Assembly: GCA_016870915.1 (NCBI GenBank)
Contig: VFZY01000022.1
Location: 1-46,057, forward strand
Direction of reading: 5' to 3'
Length of the DNA: 46,057 nt
Origin: Acidobacteriota bacterium
Lineage (GTDB): Bacteria; Acidobacteriota; Terriglobia; Bryobacterales; Bryobacteraceae
Shown here piece by piece: positions 11,051 to 12,313 of the stretch. The notes beneath the pieces are model-generated. The model saw nothing but the letters and a program-made list of their open reading frames with translations. It made no database searches and was not told where the DNA came from. Numbering within the stretch: position 1 is the first letter of the stretch; each line of letters starts with the position of its first letter. The position numbers and the translations under genes are program-made.

Positions 11051-12022
11051 GTGACGCCCGCCGGTGCACTGCTGCGCGATGAGATCCGCCGCGCGGGCCC
11101 GGTTCCGTTCAGCCGGTTCATGAGCGTGGCGCTCTACCATCCGGAGACCGGCTACTACCGGCGCCAGCGTGACCCCTTTGGCCGGCATGGCGACTTCTAT
11201 ACAGCGGCGCAACTGCAACCCGCATTCGGGCGATTGATGGGCGCCGCGGTGCGCGGGTTCATGAAGTCTTCCGGTATCGAGCCTCCCTTCACGATGGTGG
11301 ATCTGGGCGCCGGCCGCGCGGAGATGAGGGAAACGCTGGCGGAGTTCCGCTACGTTCCAGTCGACTTCGGGAAAGAGGAGATGCCCGCGCGCTTTGAGGG
11401 GTGTCTGCTGGCCAATGAGTTTTTCGACGCATTGCCCGTGGATGTGGTGGTGTTCGACAAGGGCGTGTTGAGGGATCGGCTTGTGGGTTGCGAGGAGGAC
11501 CGGTTCGTATGGGCGCCGGGCGGCGAGGCTGCGGCTGAGACGCTGGGCTACTGCGATCGATTTCTTGGGCCGATGAACGAAGGTGACGTGGTGGAGACGC
11601 AATTTGAAGCACTGCGCTGGATGGGGCGCGTGCGTGCTTCGCTTGCCTGCGGCATCGCGGTGATTGCCGACTACGGCTACACGGCTCGCGAGTGGGATTT
11701 GCGGCATCGCCATGGAACGCTCATGTCGTACCGCGGCCACCGCGCATCCGGCGATGTGCTGGAGGAACCCGGCGGGCGGGATATCACGGCGCATGTGAAC
11801 TTCACCGCGCTTGAGCATGCGGCGCGTGCGCAAGGGTTCCGTGTGCTATGGGCCGGGCTTCTTGAATCGTTCATTGTTGCGCACGGCATGGAAACGATGA
11901 TGACCGCGGCCGGTGCGCGGGAACGATTGCAGTGGAAGACGCTGTTGGGGAGCCTGGGCGGCGCCTTCCGCGTGCTTGTGCTGGACGCGGGGCGTGCCCG
12001 GACGGGCGAAAAGCCGGCCTAA
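11051..12022 (+). CDS. MidA/NDUFAF7-type SAM-dependent methyltransferase (DUF185)
   Basis: 323 residues from GTG 11051, 4 bp after the phosphatase stop. The N-terminal block (I-R-R-A-G-P-V-P-F-S-R-F-M) followed by LYHPETGYY and GRHGDFYTA is the signature of the MidA/NDUFAF7 family. The SAM-binding loop is VDLGAGRAEM, a variant of the usual LGPGxG. The C-terminal family block has GTLMSYRGH, then DVLEEPGGRDITAHVNFTAL. In mitochondria the family dimethylates an arginine of complex I subunit NDUFS2; the bacterial substrate is not established. It is somewhat shorter than the ~350-380 residues common in bacteria because the region after the SAM loop is compact. Confidence 0.88.
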   Translation: MTPAGALLRDEIRRAGPVPFSRFMSVALYHPETGYYRRQRDPFGRHGDFYTAAQLQPAFGRLMGAAVRGFMKSSGIEPPFTMVDLGAGRAEMRETLAEFRYVPVDFGKEEMPARFEGCLLANEFFDALPVDVVVFDKGVLRDRLVGCEEDRFVWAPGGEAAAETLGYCDRFLGPMNEGDVVETQFEALRWMGRVRASLACGIAVIADYGYTAREWDLRHRHGTLMSYRGHRASGDVLEEPGGRDITAHVNFTALEHAARAQGFRVLWAGLLESFIVAHGMETMMTAAGARERLQWKTLLGSLGGAFRVLVLDAGRARTGEKPA

Positions 12023-12052
12023 AAAGCAAAAGGCCCCGCTTTCGCGGAGCCC
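12021..12052 (-). terminator. Intrinsic terminator of the Lys/Ala peptide unit
   Basis: Read on the minus strand, an 8-bp stem with one mismatch (GGCTCCGC over GCGGGGCC, 12051-12032) and a four-base loop is followed by TTTTGCTTTTT. The T tract exists only in the minus direction, so the terminator serves the peptide gene and not the methyltransferase whose end it overlaps. Confidence 0.65.
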
Positions 12053-12089
12053 TCTGCGCTTGGACATCGCCCGTAAAGGACGAGCTGCC

Positions 12090-12158
12090 TTACTTCTTCT
12101 TCTTGGCAGCAGCCTTCTTAGCGGCCTTCTTCGCTGCCTTCTTCGCTGCATTCTTCAT
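12090..12158 (-). CDS. 22-residue Lys/Ala micro-protein, histone-H1-tail-like
   Basis: ATG 12158 to TAA 12092-12090 encodes 22 residues: Met and Asn once each, 11 Lys and 9 Ala, arranged as repeating AAKK units with a KKKK end. All lysines use AAG. AGGGAG lies about 10 bases before the ATG. A near-consensus promoter (12248-12220) and an intrinsic terminator (12052-12021) flank it, making a monocistronic unit of roughly 190 nt. The composition resembles the Lys/Ala-rich tails of histone H1, HupB and bacterial Hc1-like proteins, so binding to DNA, RNA or another polyanion is the likeliest activity. This is inferred from charge alone. A regulatory RNA that also carries the reading frame is an alternative. 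Confidence 0.65.
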   Translation of the reverse strand: MKNAAKKAAKKAAKKAAAKKKK

Positions 12159-12187
12159 GGATTGATTCTCCCTAACGTTCAAATTCA

Positions 12188-12205
12188 CGTTCTCATGCGA
12201 GAACG
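12188..12205 (-). repeat. Perfect inverted repeat in the leader of the Lys/Ala peptide gene
   Basis: CGTTCTC and GAGAACG flank a four-base loop (12188-12205). A second perfect palindrome, GAACGCGTTC (12201-12210), overlaps its end. Both lie between the predicted transcription start (~12213) and the ATG at 12158, so they could act as a leader hairpin or an operator. Confidence 0.5.
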
Positions 12206-12219
12206 CGTTCGTGATCCCA

Positions 12220-12248
12220 GATATAAGGTCTTTTGCGATGAATGTCAA
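12220..12248 (-). promoter_or_regulatory. Near-consensus sigma-70 promoter of the Lys/Ala peptide gene
   Basis: On the minus strand, TTGACA (12248-12243), a 17-base spacer and TATATC (12225-12220) give a perfect -35 and a 4-5/6 -10. It is the best promoter I found in the window. Transcription would start near 12213, leaving a leader of about 55 nt. Confidence 0.7.
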
Positions 12249-12313
12249 GAGAAAAATGCATATTGCGCCCTCACTGGTCGAAAAAAACATTTCCAGGTAG
12301 AATTGTTCTATCG

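Follow-up and report, generated by a model that had tools for sequence, protein, structure and literature searches.

A Lys/Ala micropeptide unit found across the class Terriglobia belongs to a family of small transcripts and may encode a dual-function RNA

In enterobacteria, the SgrS/SgrT system places a small ORF, then a conserved region and then a terminator on one short transcript, and relatives of SgrS are described that keep the RNA and lose the ORF, as in Yersinia and, through a mutated start codon, in E. coli O157:H7 (PMC4021124, available part of the article). VcdRP of Vibrio cholerae is likewise a dual-function RNA, encoding a 29-residue small protein and acting in carbon uptake and central metabolism (PMC8672173, available part). 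The sX6 transcript of Xanthomonas (RF02225) was first taken for an sRNA and later assigned to a small protein by mass spectrometry (PMC5559785, available part).

The locus described here resembles SgrS/SgrT, as far as the available part of that article goes, in its predicted transcript layout and in an RNA retained without the ORF in some relatives, but it would encode a low-complexity polycation of 11–120 residues, and the likeness is one of logic, with no sequence relation expected. With VcdRP it would share the pairing of a dual-function RNA with a small protein, although the metabolic setting given in the available part of that report has no known link to the Terriglobia unit. By our own reading, the Rfam consensus of sX6 is similar in its AUG, its purine-rich Lys/Arg-like codons near the end and its G+C-rich terminator, but the alignment to the window skips most of the 342-position model and its 28.7 bits fall below the cut-off of 40; we judged it to be a match of composition. 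Histone H1-like tails and HupB-type AAKK tails consist of Lys/Ala/Pro repeats that are disordered and likely bind nucleic acids. The repeats are alike here, but the tail would be the entire protein, and the 22-residue peptide matched no family in Pfam or NCBIfam at E ≤ 1, searches in which such a short query gives the models low power.

Searches with Rfam 15 gave no match at the gathering threshold in 10 loci of the family or in 18 loci from several families, ORF-less ones included; BjrC68, RsmY and other Rfam families scored weaker still than sX6. The RF02225 model was silent throughout the unit's own genome and 14 control genomes, so this comparison is uninformative. Judged by titles and the beginnings of abstracts, the open-licence literature on Lys-rich or histone H1-like small proteins of Acidobacteria, on AAKKAAKK, and on dual-function RNAs or sRNAs of Acidobacteriaceae, Granulicella or Terriglobus held nothing that describes this gene.

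In the window, the whole 46,057-nucleotide stretch of Bryobacteraceae DNA that was analysed, the entire unit lies on the minus strand, which the initial annotation had left unstated. Its parts follow one another from 5′ to 3′ in this order:

12248..12256, minus strand: T-rich tract immediately 5′ of the −35 box, read from the sequence and kept in the family and class alignments
12243..12248, minus strand: −35 box TTGACA; TTGAC is unvaried in 30 family and 51 class sequences
12220..12225, minus strand: −10 box TATATC, 17 bp from the −35 box, matching the consensus TATAAT at four of six positions; seen in family and class alignments
12186..12207, minus strand: leader hairpin of nine pairs near the inferred 5′ end of the RNA, from folding and covariation of seven pairs in 30 family sequences
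12166..12173, minus strand: Shine-Dalgarno (SD)-like motif AGGGAGAA, almost unvaried in family and class alignments
12090..12158, minus strand: ORF MKNAAKKAAKKAAKKAAAKKKK with its stop codon, from translation and coding-type variation among relatives
12063..12089, minus strand: small hairpin in the 3′ untranslated region, from folding, with similar ones in relatives by eye
12026..12057, minus strand: stem-loop of an intrinsic terminator, 14 pairs followed by TTTTT; the stem is present in 30 of 30 family loci

The ORF begins with ATG at 12158 and has 22 codons, 11 for Lys and 9 for Ala. The promoter, SD motif, Lys/Ala frame and terminator that the initial annotation had put together were all located, and its coordinates fit. 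Its description of the promoter as near-perfect proved overstated: TTGACA and the 17-bp spacer stand, but with four of six consensus positions in the −10 box and no site listed by a consensus promoter scan in the region of the unit, the promoter is better called good. Many relatives carry TATATA or TATACA as their −10 box in the family and class alignments. Terminator-like sites in the terminator scan occurred at chance level (2 found, 2.2 expected), and by folding alone the leader hairpin is ordinary (z −1.33; 15 of 200 shuffles fold equally well), so that its support comes from covariation. A single genome is thus little proof of such a unit, and it is conservation in relatives that lifts it far above chance.

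Comparison with relatives shows the same layout across the window's family, placed in or near Bryobacteraceae. A DNA search with the 241-bp unit matched 43 of 61 genomes, its own included, at E ≤ 0.001, some of them through the Lys-rich stretch alone. In all 30 loci that were fetched, the window's among them, promoter, leader, SD motif, Lys-rich ORF and terminator stem were present, and the ORF had 18–25 residues in 29 loci and 87 in one. The proposal of a dedicated Lys/Ala micropeptide unit is thereby borne out, and the AAKK pattern, whose absence from relatives the initial annotation had said would count against it, is present there with the same promoter/terminator layout. A covariance model reaching from the T-rich tract to codon 8, and so including the first eight codons (R1), matched 183 of 200 genomes of the family, 134 of its 140 good-quality genomes and 73 of its 76 genera, nearly always with one copy per genome; G638 and G693 have two matches each, which may reflect duplication or a mixed assembly. 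A pattern scan of named genomes returned at least 118 stretches, and among the 118 listed, 62 carry a Lys-rich ORF by our filter (three at a DNA end) and 3 a Lys/Ala/Pro-rich one, while the remaining 53, with unrelated ORFs, look like chance. In the 80 of the 118 that were titled, the Lys-rich ones belong to Acidobacteriota, mostly Bryobacterales, Bryobacteraceae, Solibacteraceae and Terriglobia.

The leader hairpin covaries within the family, which points to selection on the RNA as well. Across the 30 sequences, 96.1% of cells are paired and two-sided changes occur at five of the seven pairs, a covariation score that none of 500 shuffles reached; pairing falls to 28–44% when one strand is slid. 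By eye, other families have hairpins at the same place made of other letters. By eye, many ORF-bearing loci in part of family f11 have AAGGCAA right before the terminator, and this is the motif retained in the ORF-less genera described below.

Outside the family, R1 matched, at E ≤ 0.01, 37 genomes from eight further families in the class, and in every one of these matches the SD motif is followed by a Lys-rich ORF of 11–26 residues, such as MATKKKAKKKKKH and MKKKAAKKKKK; a strict script found a terminator in 32 of the 37 loci. Because R1 holds the first codons, we built a second model, R2, on 51 sequences that stop short of the start codon and contain no coding base (3 of 54 leader sequences, in which an inner TTGAC had been picked, were left out). 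R2 matches 249 of 399 class genomes. We read 56 class matches that had not been used in building R2, drawn from the matches with a stated position or locus: 48 run directly into a Lys-rich ORF, and the 8 ORF-less ones fall in genera g105 (6), g97 (1) and g78 (1). The g78 case (L257, in G188) is a lone ORF-less copy, the other g78 copies that were read carrying the ORF. As judged by these comparisons, the unit belongs to a family of small transcripts found across the class Terriglobia of the Acidobacteriota, a breadth that the initial annotation had missed, as it had the covarying leader hairpin, the ORF range of 11–120 residues and the ORF-less genera.

Among the genomes sampled from the phylum outside the class, 30 gave weak matches (E 1.3e-5 to 0.009); most cover the promoter half of the model and about five cover most of it, and none of the best five of the 30 is followed by a Lys-rich ORF. 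Within the same order, family f3 gave no R1 or R2 match among the genomes listed (G038, G040–G052), which may reflect loss or a diverged form, though more distant families of the class carry the unit.

The ORF varies in the manner of a coding sequence. Across the 30 loci of the family, diversity is high at the third positions of Ala4, Thr5, Lys7 and Ala8 (0.40–0.72), whereas first and second positions of codons 2–8 stay at 0.31 or below. Among the distinct ORFs compared, 91 of MKxA type and 64 of MA type, length varies by the number of AAKK or APAKK repeats, from 11 residues in the shortest intact frame (L180) to 120 in the longest (L040). Growth by these repeats to 52–120 residues is seen in L036, L040, L049, L056, L063, L078, L080, L085, L121 and L027. 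The kept start, the variation at third positions and the change of length by repeats together make a translated disordered polycation likely, and a conserved -A-T-K-K- start with free length fits such a polycation, with no fixed fold. We regard translation of the ORF as very likely. That the peptide binds nucleic acid or the ribosome appears reasonably probable from its composition, a histone-like role is possible, and compaction of the chromosome by it seems improbable.

The first Ala codon is GCA in all 64 MA-type ORFs, against 174 of the 329 Ala codons elsewhere in them; for the MKxA type the counts are 79 of 91 ORFs at the first Ala codon and 86 of 780 at the remaining ones. The bias is also what a general preference for weakly structured start regions would give, and because the genomes are related, its P values overstate it.

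In two genera, g97 and g105, which we take to be Granulicella and Terriglobus, respectively, the RNA is kept and the ORF is not. The unit was found in 19 of 19 genomes of g105 and a Lys-rich ORF in none of the 19 copies (one, L309, is cut at a contig end); by eye, three copies have ACG at the expected place of the start codon. Of the 28 g97 genomes, 25 gave a match. One match (L356) is counted as a promoter occurring by chance; the other 24 copies are real, and all of them lack the ORF. The weak additional matches L360 and L361 are outside this count. In both genera the ORF-less copies still have their promoter, SD-like motif and terminator.

Between pairs of g97 loci, the stretch from SD motif to terminator is 0.86 identical, compared with 0.20 in the 200 bases upstream and 0.30 in the 100 bases downstream. 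Its core, aligned with 2 of the 24 loci left out as near-duplicates, reads GGGAGCGCAGGCAAACGCAACC(A)AGGCAAAGCA, and the one-base indel is incompatible with any reading frame. A five-pair hairpin is predicted in this core, with GGCAA in its loop and further GGCAA copies elsewhere; it never varies and so has no covariation support, and the g97 terminator does show compensatory changes. Many g105 copies have, by eye, a GCGG..CCGC stem around GGCAAAG.

Conservation of the body is weaker in g105: across 17 copies (2 of the 19 loci were left out, one for a contig end and one for an N) it is 0.44 identical, against 0.33 upstream and 0.10 downstream. L275, L276 and L277, which are closely related, show 0 differences in the 82 bases of promoter and leader and 1–3 in the 88 of the body, compared with 8–36% upstream, 6–11% downstream and 6–23% in the terminator. 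The pair L270 and L271 has 6 differences in the 32 bases of the leader, and its body differs as much as the downstream flank (both 0.04). Retention of the RNA without the ORF in two genera indicates that it probably has a function of its own, and a functional RNA in these genera is, on the sequence comparison, a likely conclusion. For the window's organism, the case for a functional RNA is evenly balanced. Among the window's genus-level kin the ORF-less state is rare: g53, a genus of its family, has 10 loci with the ORF and 3 without, out of 13; leader scores are 41.2–47.5 bits with the ORF and 36.8–43.1 without, and six more genomes gave no match. The three ORF-less loci may hold an RNA that is retained or one that is decaying.

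Outside the family, the unit does not travel with its neighbours. Within the family, RlpA adjoins 22 of 30 loci and a methyltransferase 23 of 30 (own locus counted), and neither these two nor five other proteins of the window matched any of the 37 other-family loci, each covering 2–3 kb; with no neighbours shared across families, the unit stands alone. Neighbours as a clue to function were dropped on the same 0 of 37, and a role as leader peptide for the downstream gene was rejected, the next gene being convergent.

The reading that we favour, and hold to be rather more probable than its competitors taken together, is that the unit makes a dual-function RNA of SgrS/SgrT-like logic whose peptide binds polyanions; that the unit is transcribed and translated we infer, as we do the binding of polyanions and any target of the RNA. 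A housekeeping-type promoter would give an RNA of about 190 nt that has a hairpin near its 5′ end and closes with an intrinsic terminator, and the promoter type and the hairpin should make this RNA abundant and stable. In most lineages, the window's included, translation would yield a very short disordered Lys/Ala polycation, and a cationic micropeptide with 11 Lys in 22 residues should bind a polyanion, whether DNA, RNA, the ribosome or polyphosphate. The rest of the RNA is probably a small regulatory or protein-binding RNA, and in the two genera the ORF would have gone while the RNA stayed. A more specific version, which we offer tentatively and think rather unlikely as a whole, holds that an ancestral dual-function RNA of the Terriglobia encodes a micropeptide of about 11–27 residues in most species and of up to 120 through repeats in some, and that in Granulicella and Terriglobus it has become a purely regulatory RNA, with GGCAA repeats in loop and single strand possibly titrating an RNA-binding protein as CsrB/RsmY do with CsrA.

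A simpler account has the unit as a plain mRNA for a polycationic micropeptide, its leader and 3′ features serving only strong expression and mRNA stability and its ORF-less copies being re-used or decaying. The coding-type variation and the ORF in 37 of 37 other-family R1 matches and 48 of 56 held-out R2 matches agree with this, as do the weakly conserved g105 body and the slightly lower scores of the three ORF-less g53 leaders; it sits badly, however, with a g97 core that is the best conserved part of its locus despite an indel that breaks any frame, and with AAGGCAA before the terminator in ORF-bearing loci of part of f11 (by eye), and we consider it a possible but clearly less probable explanation than the dual-function RNA. 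If the product were instead a non-coding small RNA in every lineage and the Lys-rich frame a by-product of a purine-rich (AAG AAG GCN) RNA, the RNA without ORF in g97 and g105 and the strong GCA bias at the ORF start would follow naturally, but the ORF keeps its start codon, SD spacing, stop and Lys/Ala composition despite third-position variation, and frames of 11–120 residues stay open while repeat number changes freely, making this account very improbable. That the frame arose by chance, or is the end of a longer protein starting upstream, is hardly credible at all. A mechanical 85-residue ORF (12347-12090) does end in the peptide, but it would cross the promoter and hairpin, and since the length of this region varies by amounts not divisible by three (83–93 bases from CTTGAC to ATG in relatives), we rejected it; as to chance, only 1 of the 146 sites in the window that combine an SD-like motif with ATG leads into a short frame in which Lys exceeds 30%, and that site is the MKNAAKKAAKKAAKKAAAKKKK ORF.

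If the dual-function reading is true, the Acidobacteriota, abundant and poorly understood soil bacteria, would gain a gene that is present across a class and has products as short as 11 residues, too small for ordinary gene finders to pick up. Related genera with and without the ORF would be a natural experiment on the separation of coding and regulatory roles, and strains of both kinds presumably are in culture, so that the two roles could be tested apart. The unit also raises the question of how a Lys/Ala tail acts when no folded domain is attached to it.

The window's own genome contains three HU-like frames (G000:C11, C143 and C15; L205–L207), and the two of them that were translated have no long AAKK tail; it might be, as speculation, that the micropeptide stands in for such a tail of HU. 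The same genome also holds two adjacent Lys/Ala/Pro-rich ORFs of 109 and 132 residues with histone H1-like composition, on the minus strand at 1248-1577 and 1669-2067 of L002 (G000:C97:1899-4953).
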